DNA of 64,000 nt from Terriglobia bacterium (GTDB lineage Bacteria > Acidobacteriota > Terriglobia > Terriglobales > Acidobacteriaceae). Shown one piece after another: positions 273 through 19,415 of this stretch. The stretch is taken from assembly GCA_020073465.1 (NCBI GenBank), contig JAIQFC010000008.1, positions 1 through 64,000 on the forward strand. The letters run 5' to 3'. Every line of letters begins with the position of its first letter. Positions within the stretch are counted from its first letter, which is position 1. A model generated the notes under the pieces. The model was given only the letters and a program-made list of their open reading frames with translations. It ran no database searches and was not told where the DNA came from. The position numbers were made by a program, and so were the translations under genes.

Positions 273-279
273 GCAGTGC

Positions 280-362
280 CGCCCCTACGGGACTCGCTCG
301 AGCTTCCCACTCTACCCGGCACTTCCGTGCCGGGCTATCACATACCGCCCCTACGGGGCTGG
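280..362 (+). repeat. 83-nt multi-hairpin repeat, copy 1
   Basis: Layout: a 14-nt hairpin (280-293, CGCCCCTACGGGAC), a 21-nt spacer, a 20-nt hairpin (315-334, CCCGGCAC-TTCC-GTGCCGGG), an 11-nt linker and a 17-nt hairpin (346-362, CGCCCCTACGGGGCTGG). The copy at 16406-16488 has exactly the same block lengths, but its stem sequences differ with compensating changes. It starts 8 bp after the TolC-like gene. Confidence 0.8.
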
Positions 363-713
363 AATTTGCTGATCCCTTCCACGTCTTCATTCGGAATTCA
401 GTTCTCACCCTCACTTTGAAACCGTTCCATCCTTGGGGACGCCAGCCGGTGGCCGCCGGGACGGCGGCGCTACTTTCGCGTCGCCCCGACCCGTTTACCT
501 CGTTCCCGCTCAGCGCGTCTTTTGCCTGTTCAGGGCATCTAAAGTTCTATTCGACTGATGAGGGTTCCCTCCCCCGAGGCTAGCTAGTAGATTGAAAGCA
601 CGGCATTTCCTGTTGCAACAGTCCGTGTCCTTCTGGGGTTGGGGAACCTGCGGAAATACTGGGTCGAACCGAGAAACTCCGGGCCCGAATGCTAAAATAA
701 TTGGATACTCACT
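363..713. other. Intergenic region upstream of hpnJ
   Basis: I see no convincing gene. It holds GC-rich hairpin-prone sequence (around 430-475, GGTGGCCGCCGGGACGGCGG) and, close to hpnJ, an AT-rich TAAAAT at 693-698 that could be a -10 box about 16 nt before the start codon; no good -35 box accompanies it. Confidence 0.4.
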
Positions 714-2183
714 ATGCCTCTAAAAACACTGTTTCTGAACCCCCCTTCGTTTGAGAACTTCGACGGAGGCGCCGGCTCGCGCTGGCCTGCCACCCGCGAG
801 ATAGAAAGCTATTGGTACCCCGTTTGGCTGGCTTATCCGGCGGGCATGCTGGAGGGGTCGCGGCTTCTGGATGCGCCTCCGCATTATGTAACGGCGGAGC
901 AGACGATCGAGATTGCCAAGGAATACGAGTTCCTGGTGCTGTTCACCTCAACTCCGGGGTTTCCGGGGGACATTCGGCTGTCGCAGGCGATTAAGAAGGG
1001 GAATCCGAAGATCAAGATCGCTTTCGTCGGACCGCATGTGACGGTGCTGCCGGAGAAGTCGCTGCGGGATTGTCCGGCGATCGATTTCATCTGCCGCAAG
1101 GAATTTGATTACGCAGTAGTCGATTACGCCAAGGGCAAGCCACTCGCGGAGATTCCGGGAGTGTCCTTCCTGAAGGATGGGAAGGTTGTACACAATCCGG
1201 ACGCGCCACAGATTCAAGATCTGGATGCGCTGCCGCACGTGACCGACATCTACAAGCGCGATCTGGACGTGACGCGGTACAACGTGCCGTTTCTGTTGAA
1301 TCCGTATGTTTCGCTTTATACGACGCGTGGCTGTCCGGCGCAATGCACGTTCTGCCTGTGGCCGCAGACGTTGAGCGGGCATCCTTGGCGGAAGCGCTCG
1401 ACCGATGATGTGGCGCGGGAGATGGCGAAGGCCAAGGAATATTGGCCGAACGTAAGAGAATTCTTCTTCGACGATGACACGTTCAACATCCAGAAGGCGC
1501 GCACCATCGAGCTTTGCGCGAAGCTGAAGCCGCTGGGGCTGACGTGGTCTTGCACCTCCCGTGTGACCACCGACTACGAAACGCTCAAGGCGATGAAGGA
1601 AGCGGGATGCCGGCTGCTTATCGTCGGCTACGAGTCGGGCGACCAGCAGATCCTGAAGAACATCAAGAAGGGAGCGACCGTCGAGCGGGCGCGGCAGTTT
1701 ACTAAGGACTGCCACAAGCTGGGGCTGGTCATCCATGGCGACTTCATCATGGGGCTGCCGGGCGAAACGCACGAGACCATCAACAACACGATTGCGTTTG
1801 CCAAGGAGCTGGACGTGGAGACCATCCAGGTATCGGTGGCGCACGCTTATCCGGGCACCGAACTCTACGACTACGCGGTGAAGAACGGGTTCATGGCGGC
1901 GGACAACAAAATGGTGGACGAAGGCGGACACCAACTGGCGCACATCCAGTATCCGGGGCTTCCGGCCGACGACATTCTCTCCGCGGTCCATCGCTTCTAC
2001 GACGAGTATTACTTCCGGCCGAAGGCTGTGTTCCGCATTCTGAAGAAGGCGGCGTTCGACGGCTCGGAGCGGAAGCGGTTGTACAAGGAAGCGAAAACCT
2101 TCCTGAAGGTGCGGTCGATGCGCAACAAGCTGGTGAAGCAGCACAGCGATGAAGCGGCGGCCGCGGCCGCCGGAGCCGATTGA
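714..2183 (+). CDS. hpnJ: Hopanoid biosynthesis B12-binding-type radical SAM protein HpnJ
   Basis: 489 residues. The N-terminal ~170 residues resemble a cobalamin-binding Rossmann domain. The radical-SAM cluster motif CPAQCTFC (C-x3-C-x2-C) lies near residue 205, in the context TRGCPAQCTFCLWPQTLSG characteristic of HpnJ, followed by a B12-radical-SAM core (FFFDDDTFN, GYESGD, GDFIMGLPGET). In the family HpnJ acts late on the bacteriohopanetetrol side chain, in forming the cyclitol ether head group from the glucosamine form. The core hopanoid genes lie 14 kb away on the other strand, so this is a separate locus; two small membrane proteins follow. The C-terminal Ala-rich tail (EAAAAAAGAD) looks non-conserved. 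The ATG follows an AT-rich leader. Confidence 0.9.
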   Translation: MPLKTLFLNPPSFENFDGGAGSRWPATREIESYWYPVWLAYPAGMLEGSRLLDAPPHYVTAEQTIEIAKEYEFLVLFTSTPGFPGDIRLSQAIKKGNPKIKIAFVGPHVTVLPEKSLRDCPAIDFICRKEFDYAVVDYAKGKPLAEIPGVSFLKDGKVVHNPDAPQIQDLDALPHVTDIYKRDLDVTRYNVPFLLNPYVSLYTTRGCPAQCTFCLWPQTLSGHPWRKRSTDDVAREMAKAKEYWPNVREFFFDDDTFNIQKARTIELCAKLKPLGLTWSCTSRVTTDYETLKAMKEAGCRLLIVGYESGDQQILKNIKKGATVERARQFTKDCHKLGLVIHGDFIMGLPGETHETINNTIAFAKELDVETIQVSVAHAYPGTELYDYAVKNGFMAADNKMVDEGGHQLAHIQYPGLPADDILSAVHRFYDEYYFRPKAVFRILKKAAFDGSERKRLYKEAKTFLKVRSMRNKLVKQHSDEAAAAAAGAD

Positions 2184-15963: not shown

Positions 15964-17502
15964 TCAGCCTCGGGCAAACAGGCGCATGAGGCCGGTCGCG
16001 GGGAGATCAGGGACGAGAAATTCCCCAGGGATGAGTCCGGCTGCGCGAGTCAGTGCTTCCGCGGCGTAGTAGCCGCTGCGCACAGCCCCCTCCATAGTGG
16101 CGGGCCAGCCTGTGTCGGTCCAGTCGCCGGCGAGGAAGACACGGGGCCAGGCCGTGATCTGGGAAGAGCGGTATGCGTCAATCCCGGGGCGGGGCGAGTA
16201 GGTGGCGTGGACTTCTTTGATGACGGTGGACTTGACGAGGTTCGCGTCACGGGCCGCAGGGAAAAACTCGCGCAGCTCGCGGAGAGCCAGGTCGACGATG
16301 TCTGAGCGCGATTTTTCGATCAGGCTTTTGGAGGCGCTGACGACAAGTTCGACGTAGCTGCCGATCTTCTGAGGCGCTAAAGCGTCAGTTGCCAGACCAT
16401 TCTTTCGCCCCTCCGGGGCTGAATCGTGTTTGTCTTCTGACCCACGGCTGGCGCCGTGGGCTGCATTCTGTCGCCGCTCCGCGGCTGGTTCAGAGGACAT
16501 CCTTTCAACCCGCATGGGCTGGAGGCGGGATTTGTGGAACATCCATTGGATGGTGCGGTCGAGCAGTACCGCATGATCGAGATCTGAGATGTGGCGGTCG
16601 AACCACAGATGAATGCCGGTGATCGGAGCGCTCTCGAAGTGGCTCAGCATCTCGCGCAGGCGTGTGCTCTCGGGGGCTTCCGGCAGAACGCGGTCGAGAC
16701 CATCGAAGGGGAGCGCGAGCACGAGATAATCAAAGACCTGCTCTCTGTCCGCGAGCTGCAGCCGCACTTGCGAAGGCTCCGCCTGAAATGTGCTGACCGG
16801 GGAGCGGAACTGCAACTCGCCACCGCGGGCTTGGATGTACTCGCCGGCGGCGTTGTAGAGGTCGGTCAGGGGAATCGTGGGCACTCCCATGTGGCGGGCG
16901 GAGGGCGTCTTCATCGACTCGCGGACGACCTGCGCGGCGTAGGGAATGGAGATGAGCTCGAGATCTTCGCTCAGTGCGCTGACCAGAATCGGCTTCCAGA
17001 AGCGGTCGATGGCACGCTGGGTTTGACCGTGTCGTTGCAGCCATTCGGCGAACGACTGTCCAGTGTCCTGCGGCGTAGTGAGGGTCAGCGGGACCATGGC
17101 GCGGGCGATGGCCAGTTTGTCGGTCGCGTCCAGGAATGGAAATCGCAGGAAAGAGGGCACGGTGTGCAGCGGGGCGGGCAACGGGGAGGCGTGCATCACG
17201 GAGGTGCGGCCGCCGGGCTCGATGAAGGTCATTTCGTCGTACCAGCGGATGTGCTGGTCGACTCCGATGCGCTGGTAGAACTCGACGAGGTTGGTACAAA
17301 CGCGAAACAGGACGTGCTGGCAGTTGTCGACGATCTCGCCCGTACCAGGGTGCTCGTAGGAGGAAGCACGGCCACCAAGATATGGGCGGCGCTCAAACAC
17401 GGTGACGCGGAGGCCGGAGCTGGCCAGGGCACAGGCGGCTGCGAGACCGGCGAGTCCGCCTCCGGCGATGGCTACTGTTGGTTTAGTCGGACTCTGGGTC
17501 AT
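15964..17502 (-). CDS. hpnE: Squalene-forming FAD-dependent desaturase/oxidoreductase HpnE
   Basis: 512 residues from the ATG at 17502. The FAD-binding motif AIAGGGLAGLAAACALA and a dinucleotide-contact region ERRPYLGGRASSYEHP mark an amino-oxidase/carotenoid-desaturase-type flavoprotein; HpnE completes the HpnC-HpnD-HpnE route from farnesyl diphosphate to squalene. Its start is 3 bp after the hpnD stop, so it ends the hopanoid operon. Oddity: residues ~334-375 (16378-16500) are a Ser/Ala/Lys/Arg-rich insertion (SEPAAERRQNAAHGASRGSE...) encoded by an 83-nt repeat plus flanking hairpin, between QWMFHKSRLQ and IGSYVELVVSAS. The frame remains open, so the protein may still fold with an extra loop. 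Confidence 0.92.
   Translation of the reverse strand: MTQSPTKPTVAIAGGGLAGLAAACALASSGLRVTVFERRPYLGGRASSYEHPGTGEIVDNCQHVLFRVCTNLVEFYQRIGVDQHIRWYDEMTFIEPGGRTSVMHASPLPAPLHTVPSFLRFPFLDATDKLAIARAMVPLTLTTPQDTGQSFAEWLQRHGQTQRAIDRFWKPILVSALSEDLELISIPYAAQVVRESMKTPSARHMGVPTIPLTDLYNAAGEYIQARGGELQFRSPVSTFQAEPSQVRLQLADREQVFDYLVLALPFDGLDRVLPEAPESTRLREMLSHFESAPITGIHLWFDRHISDLDHAVLLDRTIQWMFHKSRLQPMRVERMSSEPAAERRQNAAHGASRGSEDKHDSAPEGRKNGLATDALAPQKIGSYVELVVSASKSLIEKSRSDIVDLALRELREFFPAARDANLVKSTVIKEVHATYSPRPGIDAYRSSQITAWPRVFLAGDWTDTGWPATMEGAVRSGYYAAEALTRAAGLIPGEFLVPDLPATGLMRLFARG
16406..16488 (+). repeat. 83-nt multi-hairpin repeat, copy 2 (inside hpnE)
   Basis: Blocks: hairpin CGCCCCTCCGGGGC (16406-16419), 21-nt spacer, 20-nt hairpin 16441-16460 (CCCACGGC-TGGC-GCCGTGGG), 11-nt linker and hairpin 16472-16488 (CGCCGCTCCGCGGCTGG). 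All block lengths equal those of the copy at 280-362 while the stems carry compensating differences. A further hairpin, GGCGCTAAAGCGTC, lies just before it, near 16373-16386. Confidence 0.85.
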
Positions 17503-17505
17503 CAA

Positions 17506-18456
17506 TCAGATTAAACGCTGGACGAAGCCTTTGCCCAGAATGCGCAGCTTTTCCGACACCGTGAGGCTGACTTTGCCGCTGAAGACGTCGTACTGGCGTT
17601 CGGCGATTTTTTCCAAGAGGCGCCGGTAGATGCGTACGAGCACCCAGAGCGCGGGCTGGCTGTCTTCCGAGACATAGGGAATCAATTCTTCTCCGGCCTG
17701 ATAAAACTCACGGGCGCGGTCAGCCTCGAAGGCCAGCAGCGGGCGAAAGCGGGCGGGATCGGGGGTTGAAAGCAATTCGGCAGCCGACAAGCCGAACTTT
17801 GCCAGGTCTTCCTCCGGCAGGTAGACTCGGCCCAGCGCGGCGTCTTCTTTCACGTCGCGAAGGATGTTTGTGAGTTGAAAGGCCAGGCCGCAGCGTTCGG
17901 CCAGAGGCTCGGCGGCAGGATCGCGATAGCCGAAGACATGAATGCAGACCAGGCCCACCACCGAGGCCACGCGATAGCAATAGAGACGCAGGTCCTCGAA
18001 AGTCTTGTACTGAATCGCAAGGCCGGGAGTTGAGCTGGGACCCGCGACTGCTTCACCTACGTTCTCGTGTACGTCCATGCCCGTGCCCTGGGCAAGCTCG
18101 TCGAGCAGACCGGCGGGAATCTGGTAGCGGCGCTGGGCATCGGTCAAGGCCAGCAGGACCGCATCGTCGGTGGGGTGGCCCTGTTGCGCGCGGTGAAGAG
18201 CGTCGAGCCATGAGTCCAGTTTCTGGCGGCGCTCTTCGAGGCTGAGGCGGGGATCGTCGGCGATGTCGTCGCACTGCCGCATGAAGGCATAGACGGCGCA
18301 CAGGGCTTCCCGCTTGCGGCGTGGCAGAACCAGGAACGCGTAATAGAAATTCTTTGCGGCCGACCGCGTGATTCCCCGGCAGACGGAATAGGCCATCACC
18401 AGTTGCGGTGGAGCGGGGGTCCAGGGGATGGGGGCTGGCGTGGCTCCTGCGCTCAT
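17506..18456 (-). CDS. hpnD: Presqualene diphosphate synthase HpnD
   Basis: 316 residues. A trans-prenyltransferase (squalene/phytoene synthase) fold with YAFMRQCDDIADD as the first aspartate-rich motif (near 62) and LTNILRDVKEDAALGRVYLPEEDL as the second. HpnD condenses two farnesyl diphosphates to presqualene diphosphate, which HpnC then converts to hydroxysqualene. It overlaps the upstream hpnC by 4 bp (translational coupling), and its stop is 3 bp before hpnE. The N-terminus (SAGATPAPIPWTPAPP) is a Pro-rich extension of no known function. Confidence 0.92.
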   Translation of the reverse strand: MSAGATPAPIPWTPAPPQLVMAYSVCRGITRSAAKNFYYAFLVLPRRKREALCAVYAFMRQCDDIADDPRLSLEERRQKLDSWLDALHRAQQGHPTDDAVLLALTDAQRRYQIPAGLLDELAQGTGMDVHENVGEAVAGPSSTPGLAIQYKTFEDLRLYCYRVASVVGLVCIHVFGYRDPAAEPLAERCGLAFQLTNILRDVKEDAALGRVYLPEEDLAKFGLSAAELLSTPDPARFRPLLAFEADRAREFYQAGEELIPYVSEDSQPALWVLVRIYRRLLEKIAERQYDVFSGKVSLTVSEKLRILGKGFVQRLI

Positions 18457-19415
18457 CCGAGTTCTCCCAGCAGTTTGCCCATGGCAGCGCGTGCGACCAG
18501 GGCCAGCTTGCGTCCCTTGGAAATGGACGGGCGACAGCCGAGCACGGCGAATCCCTGGCGCTCGATGGCATTCAGGATTTCCTGGCCTCCGCGGGTGAAG
18601 AGTTCGAGGTCCACGGCTAACTCGCGATTGACTTTTCCAACCAGGGGCAAGCCCTGTCGAAACCAGTCACGGGCACGTTCGACTTCGAACTTCATCATGG
18701 CGCAGAAGGCGGGAGTATTGTGGGAGGTGGCGATGTCGTGCTCGCTCGCTTCAAAGCGGCGCAGGTCTTCGAGCGGAAGGTAGATGCGACCCTTGGCATA
18801 GTCAACGCTGACGTCCTGCCAGAAGTTTGCAAGTTGCAGCGCGGTGCAGGTGAAGTCGGAAAGCTGCTGGCGTTCTGCATCGCGATAGCCGCAGAGGTAG
18901 AGCACAAGATGGCCTACAGGGTTAGCCGAATAGCGGCAGTACCCCAGCACATCGTTGAAGGTCTCGAAACGCGTGACCGTTTGGTCCTGGCGGAAGGCGC
19001 GAAGCAAGTCGGAGAACTCGTGCCGCGGGATATCGAACTGTCTTGCGGTTTCGGCGAGCGCAACGAAAACCGGGTGCCGCGGCGTACGGTCGTAGCAGGC
19101 GTCTAATTCGGTCTGCCACTGATCGAGCAATTCGAGTGACGCTGCGGTATCGCCGACTTCATCGCTGAGATCGTCGGAGATGCGGCAATAGGCGTAGACG
19201 TTGAAAAAATGCTGACGGAGACGTGCCGGAAGAAACCAGGTGGCGACGGAGAAATTTTCGTAGTGCGAGCGCGCCAGGTGGCGGCAGTAGGCGCGGGCCT
19301 CCTCCAGCGACGGTGCGGTCTCAGGGATTGCGTAGTTGACAGGCAAACGGCTCCATCCCAGGCTCGCCGAGGGCGCGGGCGCAATGCGGGGATCGGGGCT
19401 GGCGATCTGGGGCAT
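18453..19415 (-). CDS. hpnC: Hydroxysqualene synthase HpnC
   Basis: 320 residues. The squalene-synthase-like fold shows YCRISDDLSDEVGD as first aspartate-rich region and LQLANFWQDVSVDYAKGRIYLPLEDL as second. The N-terminal HYENFSVATWFLP segment is typical of HpnC, distinguishing it from HpnD. It acts on presqualene diphosphate from HpnD, giving hydroxysqualene for HpnE. It overlaps hpnD by 4 bp. The 150-bp gap to the dehydrogenase gene upstream contains a repeat copy (19495-19532), so hpnCDE might have its own promoter. Confidence 0.92.
   Translation of the reverse strand: MPQIASPDPRIAPAPSASLGWSRLPVNYAIPETAPSLEEARAYCRHLARSHYENFSVATWFLPARLRQHFFNVYAYCRISDDLSDEVGDTAASLELLDQWQTELDACYDRTPRHPVFVALAETARQFDIPRHEFSDLLRAFRQDQTVTRFETFNDVLGYCRYSANPVGHLVLYLCGYRDAERQQLSDFTCTALQLANFWQDVSVDYAKGRIYLPLEDLRRFEASEHDIATSHNTPAFCAMMKFEVERARDWFRQGLPLVGKVNRELAVDLELFTRGGQEILNAIERQGFAVLGCRPSISKGRKLALVARAAMGKLLGELG

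Follow-up and report, generated by a model that had tools for sequence, protein, structure and literature searches.

Two copies of a small repeat lie in the window (the whole analysed stretch of 64,000 nucleotides), at positions 280-362 and 16406-16488. An earlier note had given them a block plan of 14-21-20-11-17 nt, and the positions, the plan and the quoted stems are all borne out, including the last hairpin (CGCCCC/GGGG in copy 1, CGCCGC/GCGG in copy 2). Their occurrence is far beyond chance. The first block of each copy is a third hairpin (hp1, GTCCC/GGGAC or GCCCC/GGGGC, with a single C.A mismatch in copy 1), and the unit extends beyond the 83 nt by a 5' foot. The features are as follows:

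276..362, plus strand: copy 1, subfamily A1; foot GTGC 276-279, hp1 281-293, spacer, hp2 315-334, linker, hp3 346-360, GG.
315-360 and 279-362, plus strand: matches of copy 1 to RF01687 and to model R1, respectively (R1 82.5 bits; the copy sits in the alignment of this whole-element covariance model).
361..415, plus strand: remnant of the right arm of MITE1, a larger repeat whose arm follows several A-type copies (88% over query 1-56).
15964..17505, minus strand: hpnE (TIGR03467, 450.6 bits); copy 2 lies within a variable loop of this gene, in frame and antisense to it.
16400..16488, plus strand: copy 2, subfamily B; foot TTCTTT 16400-16405, hp1 16407-16419, spacer, hp2 16441-16460, linker, hp3 16472-16486, GG.
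16441-16486 and 16405-16488, plus strand: matches of copy 2 to RF01687 and to the whole-element model, respectively (83.8 bits for the latter, this copy also being in the model's own alignment).

Copy 1 had been placed after a TolC-like gene. It does follow the C-terminus of an OEP/TolC-like partial protein ending at 272, but that assignment is weak (PF02321, 18.9 bits at a cut-off of 22). The placement of copy 2 within hpnE holds. Scanning the window with the whole-element model gave nothing beyond the two copies better than E=0.25. The hopanoid genes of the window (714-2183 and 15964-19415) comprise hpnJ (TIGR03471), hpnE, hpnC and an HpnD-like gene just under its cut-off.

The earlier note knew of no name for the element. 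Both copies, however, match the Rfam family RF01687 (Acido-Lenti-1) with 54.3 bits (copy 1) and 50.7 bits (copy 2) at a gathering cut-off of 37, so the element already has one. The family spans two of the three hairpins (hp2 and hp3) and is filed under the type "Gene; sRNA". The motif is listed by Weinberg et al. 2010 (PMC2864571). According to the relevant passages of PMC13298647 (June 2026) little is known of it and a regulation of proteases is proposed, while PMC10059132 just lists it in the corresponding passage. A link between Acido-Lenti-1 or RF01687 and a transposase was not found in the literature listings and passages covered.

The complete unit (about 87 nt) consists of hp1 with a 5-bp stem, a spacer of about 21 nt, hp2 with an 8-bp stem and a 4-nt loop, an 11-nt linker and hp3 with a 5-bp stem. 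The spacing had been called exactly conserved, but across the family the distance between the starts of hp1 and hp2 ranges from 33 to 42 nt (mode 35). This genome contains at least 111 matches to RF01687 at E<=0.001 (at least 95 above the cut-off) and at least 117 full-length matches to the whole-unit model at E<=1e-5; these counts are lower bounds because scoring covered 150 of 1416 candidates in the first search and 150 of 2344 in the second. With copy 1 as query, blastn finds 37 places at E<=0.001, copy 1 itself counted. We extracted 105 of the 111 RF01687 matches (six were left out), which fall by hp2 sequence into the subfamilies B (46 copies), A1 (29), A2 (22) and C (8). The 46 copies used to train model R1 all come from this genome, and none of them flanks a transposase gene. 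Alignment A3 has 46 rows: window copy 1 and the 45 that were left once the redundancy and hairpin filters had been applied and the transposase-flanking copy taken out.

Over 46 non-redundant rows the three stems are paired in 99.4% of 824 cells, with two-sided changes in 9 of the 18 pairs; sliding the stem partners as a control lowers the pairing to 31-52%. This covariation reflects few events, because much of the two-sided change separates subfamilies, and the measure of further pair types shows no excess over its shuffles (261 of 500). The proposal of a conserved, covarying element under structural constraint is upheld: copies do occur outside the window, and stems varying without compensation are not what the family shows.

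The constraint is distributed unevenly. Between copies of one subfamily the 46-nt core is 84-93% identical and the spacer 47-52% (25-32% when shuffled), comparing pairs of equal spacer length only (25, 7 and 150 pairs from 15 A1, 8 A2 and 30 B copies); linker identity is 71% in A1, 87% in B and 100% in A2 (few pairs). With the core kept and the spacer variable, neutral decay of dead inserts is no explanation, and the hairpins could be kept in place for a function; they may be maintained or homogenised, or the spacer may be changing fast. The borders are sharp in subfamily B, where conservation stops right before TTCTTT (anchored in 41 of 46 copies) and right after GCGGCT. They are less clear for A copies because several of these lie in a larger repeat. 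Within one unit the foot of hp1 resembles that of hp3 (0.526 against 0.398 when shuffled, sd 0.012, 150 units), the foot types in the copies and units shown being TCTT, TCAG and GTGC. Some units are broken by a palindromic insert of about 24 nt, CCTTCGAC...GCTCAGGGCAGG (L019, G000:C6:11588-11695, C16:63290-63398).

A small number of copies lie inside genes: 10 of the 105 are in a frame open on both sides by our thresholds, and two such genes were followed. In hpnE, copy 2 forms an in-frame insert in a variable loop. Reading the insert classes by eye in 19 relatives, we find the same insert in two loci (in one of them, L093, other sequence replaces the hp1 part), another insert in three (two clearly palindromic), a short linker in ten, a longer unrelated linker in three and a truncated locus in one. 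The second gene encodes a PF02636 methyltransferase (L044:1-1296, G000:C64:197663-198958) and contains a B unit in frame, with frame and orientation as in hpnE. Its 21 relatives show a B unit in the same frame in three cases, a short linker in 14, another insert in three (DNA seen for one) and an ambiguous state in one. One relative has GTTCC/GGAAC instead of GCCCC/GGGGC in hp1, which is still paired, and one mismatch in hp2. Among four carriers compared, hp2 is identical at 20-21 of 21 positions and the spacer at 7-13 of 21; the carriers may have the insert by common descent or may have gained it separately. Other palindromic inserts (e.g. GGGCACGACTTCAGTCGTGCC with GGGGGCTTTAGCTCCC) occur in the same protein loops of relatives (L081, L092, L290). 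The hpnE and methyltransferase loops are insertion hot spots.

Several A copies, together with B copies, sit in MITE1 and MITE2, two larger repeats that have terminal inverted repeats of their own. All 10 MITE1 end matches and all nine right-arm matches adjoin an element copy; each of the eight MITE2 places shown holds a B unit. Reversed-pattern controls of two end searches also match (4 and 2 times, against 11 and 10 real matches), so single weak end matches may be due to chance. A simple MITE, suggested in the first flank alignment by an apparent terminal inverted repeat GTGCGTGAGAACT, was rejected: this sequence is not part of the unit but of a larger repeat that surrounds some of the A and B copies. 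No empty site was obtained from element-free MITE1 or MITE2, as every matched place adjoins or holds an element copy. In the hpnE loci of relatives the linkers are too divergent for exact insert borders to be defined, and a base-exact empty site for the unit was found neither among these linkers nor among the MITE1 and MITE2 places.

Nesting is seen by eye at further places. A repeat of about 162 nt with the terminal inverted repeat GGAGTCTGTGTCGTAGCTT, itself carrying a B unit, lies in the loop of hp1-type hairpins (L004:1311-1635 in G000:C52; also C39, C47:331906 and C25) and seems to target hairpin loops of units. A second larger repeat with ends AGTGTGCGTGAGAAC holds an A2 or B unit (L111 and L136; G000:C24:45509-45664, C19:199352-199505), and its C24 copy sits in a CCTCAGGGGCTAAAG/AAAGCCC palindrome.

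The family also flanks a particular transposase gene. The protein (about 148 aa) is an IS200-type HuH/Y1 transposase with the motif Y---Q--HH. It matches PF01797 (Y1_Tnp) and the NCBIfam IS200/IS605 model NF033573 (58 bits, cut-off 55), and HxH and Y are invariant across 11 aligned proteins. Its profile matches solved TnpA chains (best E 1e-14) of ISHp608 and of what we take to be an ISDra2-like element, the structure table saying "transposase" only. Two genes of this type are present in the genome, an intact one on C23 and one with in-frame stops on C49, and inverted units bracket both. Of 17 Y1 transposase loci of the genome scanned with R1, the other 15 were rejected as partners, since the 150 nt next to the matched stretch held no unit.

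The same arrangement recurs in relatives. At 20 loci, RF01687 matches (E<=0.1) within 150 nt, on the minus strand before and the plus strand after the gene, were found on both sides in 11, on one side in eight and not at all in one; with R1, 29 loci of relatives have a unit on both sides in 23 cases and on one side in six. From the best 80 of at least 566 named loci, 75 extend more than 150 nt on each side. Counting R1 matches down to 23.5 bits within 150 nt of the gene, 51 of these have units on both sides, seven before the gene only, five after it only and 12 on neither side. Median distances to the gene at the best 80 are 20 nt before and 14 nt after it, and a unit of the opposite orientation is nearby in 10 of 80 cases before the gene and 7 of 80 after it. 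The sets of 29 and 80 loci partly overlap (e.g. L065 and L228, with identical unit coordinates and scores). As these sequences show, the gene is bracketed by two complete inverted units in most loci examined. Two-sided loci among the best 80 of at least 566, mostly from metagenome bins, are labelled Acidobacteria, Planctomycetes, Verrucomicrobia, Calditrichaceae, Thermodesulfobacteriota, Hydrogenedentota, Armatimonadetes, Fibrobacter, Parachlamydiaceae and Scalindua. Unit arrays also occur, with spacings of about 74 and 158 nt on the two sides of the gene at L072 and of about 290 nt at L071.

Unit type follows the transposase. Over 48 loci, the two units of one gene are more alike than units of different genes in hp2 (identity 0.904 vs 0.642) and in the foot (0.801 vs 0.549), and transposase distance correlates with unit distance (r=0.645, none of 1000 permutations as high), to which linked inheritance contributes. 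The 78 loci behind this sample (150 of 212 matches aligned) were picked for having flanking units, so the comparison tests agreement and not presence. For the B consensus of this genome, core identity to units at the transposase loci L071 and L256 is 0.93-0.96; the best matches of A1 (0.82) are at L226, L220 and L066, those of A2 (0.76) at L228, L069 and L065. The best-matching candidate transposases for the two subfamilies of the window copies thus lie in relatives. A search of this genome for the transposase yielded the C23 gene, the C49 gene in two pieces and a pair of weak matches (24% and 32% identity); no cognate gene of A1, B or A2 was found among them, although 97 of the 105 extracted copies are A or B.

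Across 61 genomes, transposase and RF01687 are both found in 30, the transposase only in one, the element only in 11 and neither in 19 (Fisher p=2.9e-7, in a test that ignores phylogeny and with transposase calls that include weak matches at E<=0.001). At least three of the 11 genomes with the element and no detected transposase are 95-100% complete. Within the genus the median element count is 24 with a transposase match and 9 without.

The family brackets transposase genes in many bacteria and has copies dispersed over the genome, some of them within genes, and so resembles mobile repeat DNA more than it does an RNA gene. We consider it very probable, judging from sequence comparison, that the element (Acido-Lenti-1 plus one more hairpin) is the repeat DNA of an IS200-type single-strand transposase. 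The window copies are best read as REP-like, non-autonomous repeat DNA putatively recognised by its transposase. The transposase would recognise a folded single strand in which hp2 is enclosed by two small hairpins, hp1 and hp3, that have similar feet on their 5' sides, and it would mobilise solo units in trans, by analogy with TnpA on IS200/IS605 ends and with REPs as proposed. Copies 1 and 2 would then be non-autonomous inserts, of subfamily A1 and subfamily B respectively. A few copies may have landed in frame in protein loops (hpnE, the PF02636 methyltransferase) and been tolerated. Mobilisation, strand choice and chemistry of the unit are what we infer. Weighing against this reading, target duplication, excision product and base-exact empty site are not in evidence, so that movement as such is inferred; moreover, 12 of 75 loci are unit-free at the threshold used, 11 of 61 genomes have the element with no transposase detected, and no cognate gene was found here for the 97 A and B copies. 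The contrast between the variable spacer and the well-kept core, which neutral decay of dead inserts does not account for, also weighs against it.

The earlier note had left it undecided whether the selected structure is RNA or DNA, and on this point the evidence favours DNA. In the alternative represented by the Rfam entry, the element would be an RNA, either a small structured one or one acting in cis from a 3' UTR, with regulation of nearby proteases suggested by passages of the 2026 Tannerella/Porphyromonas paper (PMC13298647). Its type in Rfam, the strong stem covariation, hairpins better preserved than the spacer and that suggested regulation all speak for such an RNA. Selection on RNA pairing should, however, favour G.U, and no excess of G.U over A.C is seen: the imperfect pairs are G.T 5, A.C 10 and other 11 among 1816 cells in hp2, and G.T 3 and A.C 2 among 355 cells in hp3. 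These small numbers leave out badly broken stems, as stems with fewer than 6 of 8 (hp2) or 4 of 5 (hp3) Watson-Crick pairs were dropped, retaining 98 of 105 solo and 129 of 150 flanking stems for hp2 and 71 of 72 for hp3. Nor does orientation fit well, since the element lies opposite to the neighbouring gene's strand in 36 and on the same strand in 17 of 53 confidently called flanks (a rough codon-based caller, with 59 of 105 copies having no call on either side). A unit that lies before the transposase gene is antisense to that gene, as copy 2 is to the coding sequence that contains it. Altogether an RNA role seems improbable to us. We judge equally poorly of the idea that the element serves the host, as a terminator, an mRNA stabiliser or a protein-binding site, and was adopted by the transposase as landing site: published abstracts give REP-like repeats such roles and the core is kept while the spacer varies, but two inverted units near the gene that track the transposase sequence, and hpnE and methyltransferase inserts present in some relatives and missing from most compared, are hard to reconcile with it.

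Descriptions of the Rfam family associate Acido-Lenti-1 with group II introns, and the element might accordingly mark intron sites. Beyond this association nothing points that way: the main text of PMC2864571 does not once use the term "group II intron", and a genome with more than 100 copies gives no match to PF08388, the group II maturase domain, at E<=0.001. The link is disfavoured for this genome and hardly credible as an explanation. Closer to our own reading is the idea that units are mobile only within larger elements, either terminal-repeat MITEs or the whole transposase unit, with solo copies as remnants. The A and B copies inside MITE1 and MITE2, and the element copy beside each MITE1 end and right-arm match (10/10 and 9/9), argue for it; against it, B copies end sharply at the unit borders and by eye only about a dozen of the 46 lie in MITE1 or MITE2. 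We regard it as unlikely, though less so than the alternatives above. The opposite, stronger version of the transposase reading is plausible, if somewhat short of probable: each unit of about 87 nt may be an independently mobile single-stranded DNA mini-element, with hp2 framed by two ends that each consist of a foot and a hairpin (hp1 on the left, hp3 on the right). Every hairpin type would have its own transposase lineage feeding a population of solo units, which would outlive loss of the transposase and repeatedly add in-frame protein loops, and RF01687 would then be no RNA family.

Should the repeat-DNA reading hold, an RNA family unexplained since 2010 would gain a concrete, testable identity. 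It would also provide a candidate end structure for a HuH/Y1 transposase group described as being without IS properties and generally without typical ends, and a further case of repeat DNA building protein loops.

Compared with known systems, the unit agrees with RF01687 in sequence and structure from hp2 through the linker to hp3, and the two window copies score above the gathering score. It differs by adding hp1, the foot, the variable spacer and the tie to a transposase gene, and the pairing statistics give no support to the RNA status. With IS200/IS605 it has in common a HuH/Y1 TnpA and hairpins at the ends, but in our case a complete unit stands on each side of the gene, the two in inverted orientation, and the majority of units in this genome are solo. 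IS200/IS605 transposition leaves no target duplication, and the cleavage sites are paired to the hairpin foot. REP/BIME sequences with RAYT (REPtrons) resemble our system in having many dispersed small palindromes in high copy number (here at least 117 full-length copies at E<=1e-5), clusters, a bracketed Y1 transposase gene and occasional intragenic copies. The differences are three hairpins per unit, feet of the TCTT/TCAG/GTGC type instead of GTAG, and a transposase that resembles IS200 TnpA (Y---Q--HH against the Y---N-type motifs of class 2) and is not of the RAYT class. Rickettsial palindromic elements insert in frame in protein genes. The likeness to them is in such in-frame palindromic repeats (two genes examined here); the sequence family is another one.

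TIRYTs or TIRtrons (Di Nocera et al. 2013, PMC3733652) come close as well, with a Y1 transposase between long terminal inverted repeats, as seen here in 51 of 75 loci (from the best 80 of at least 566). Passages of that paper report that some TIRYT repeats are self-complementary and repeated in the genome, include Acidobacteria and mention rickettsial palindromic elements. TIRYTs are further marked by a conserved GGGGWSAS motif and a RAYT-like protein. In the part of Quentin et al. 2018 concerned (PMC6006769), 20 of 26 TIRYTs are placed in subclass 2.1, with HTH tails, whereas the protein here has about 148 aa and Y---Q--HH. This signature is found in TnpA subclass 1.2 of the same authors, which the relevant passages describe as being without IS properties, generally without typical ends and mostly from Cyanobacteria and Bacteroidetes; a specific C-terminal domain and a short core also mark that subclass. 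Class 3 of that scheme is similar in its high-copy hairpins in Acidobacteria, but is described there with Y----Q and a CnGA foot. The word Rfam has 0 occurrences in PMC3733652 and in PMC6006769. Overall, our verdict is that the element belongs by its score to RF01687, that in its way of working it is comparable to the REP or TIR units, here with a transposase of IS200 type, and that it stands outside the GTAG REP/RAYT class.
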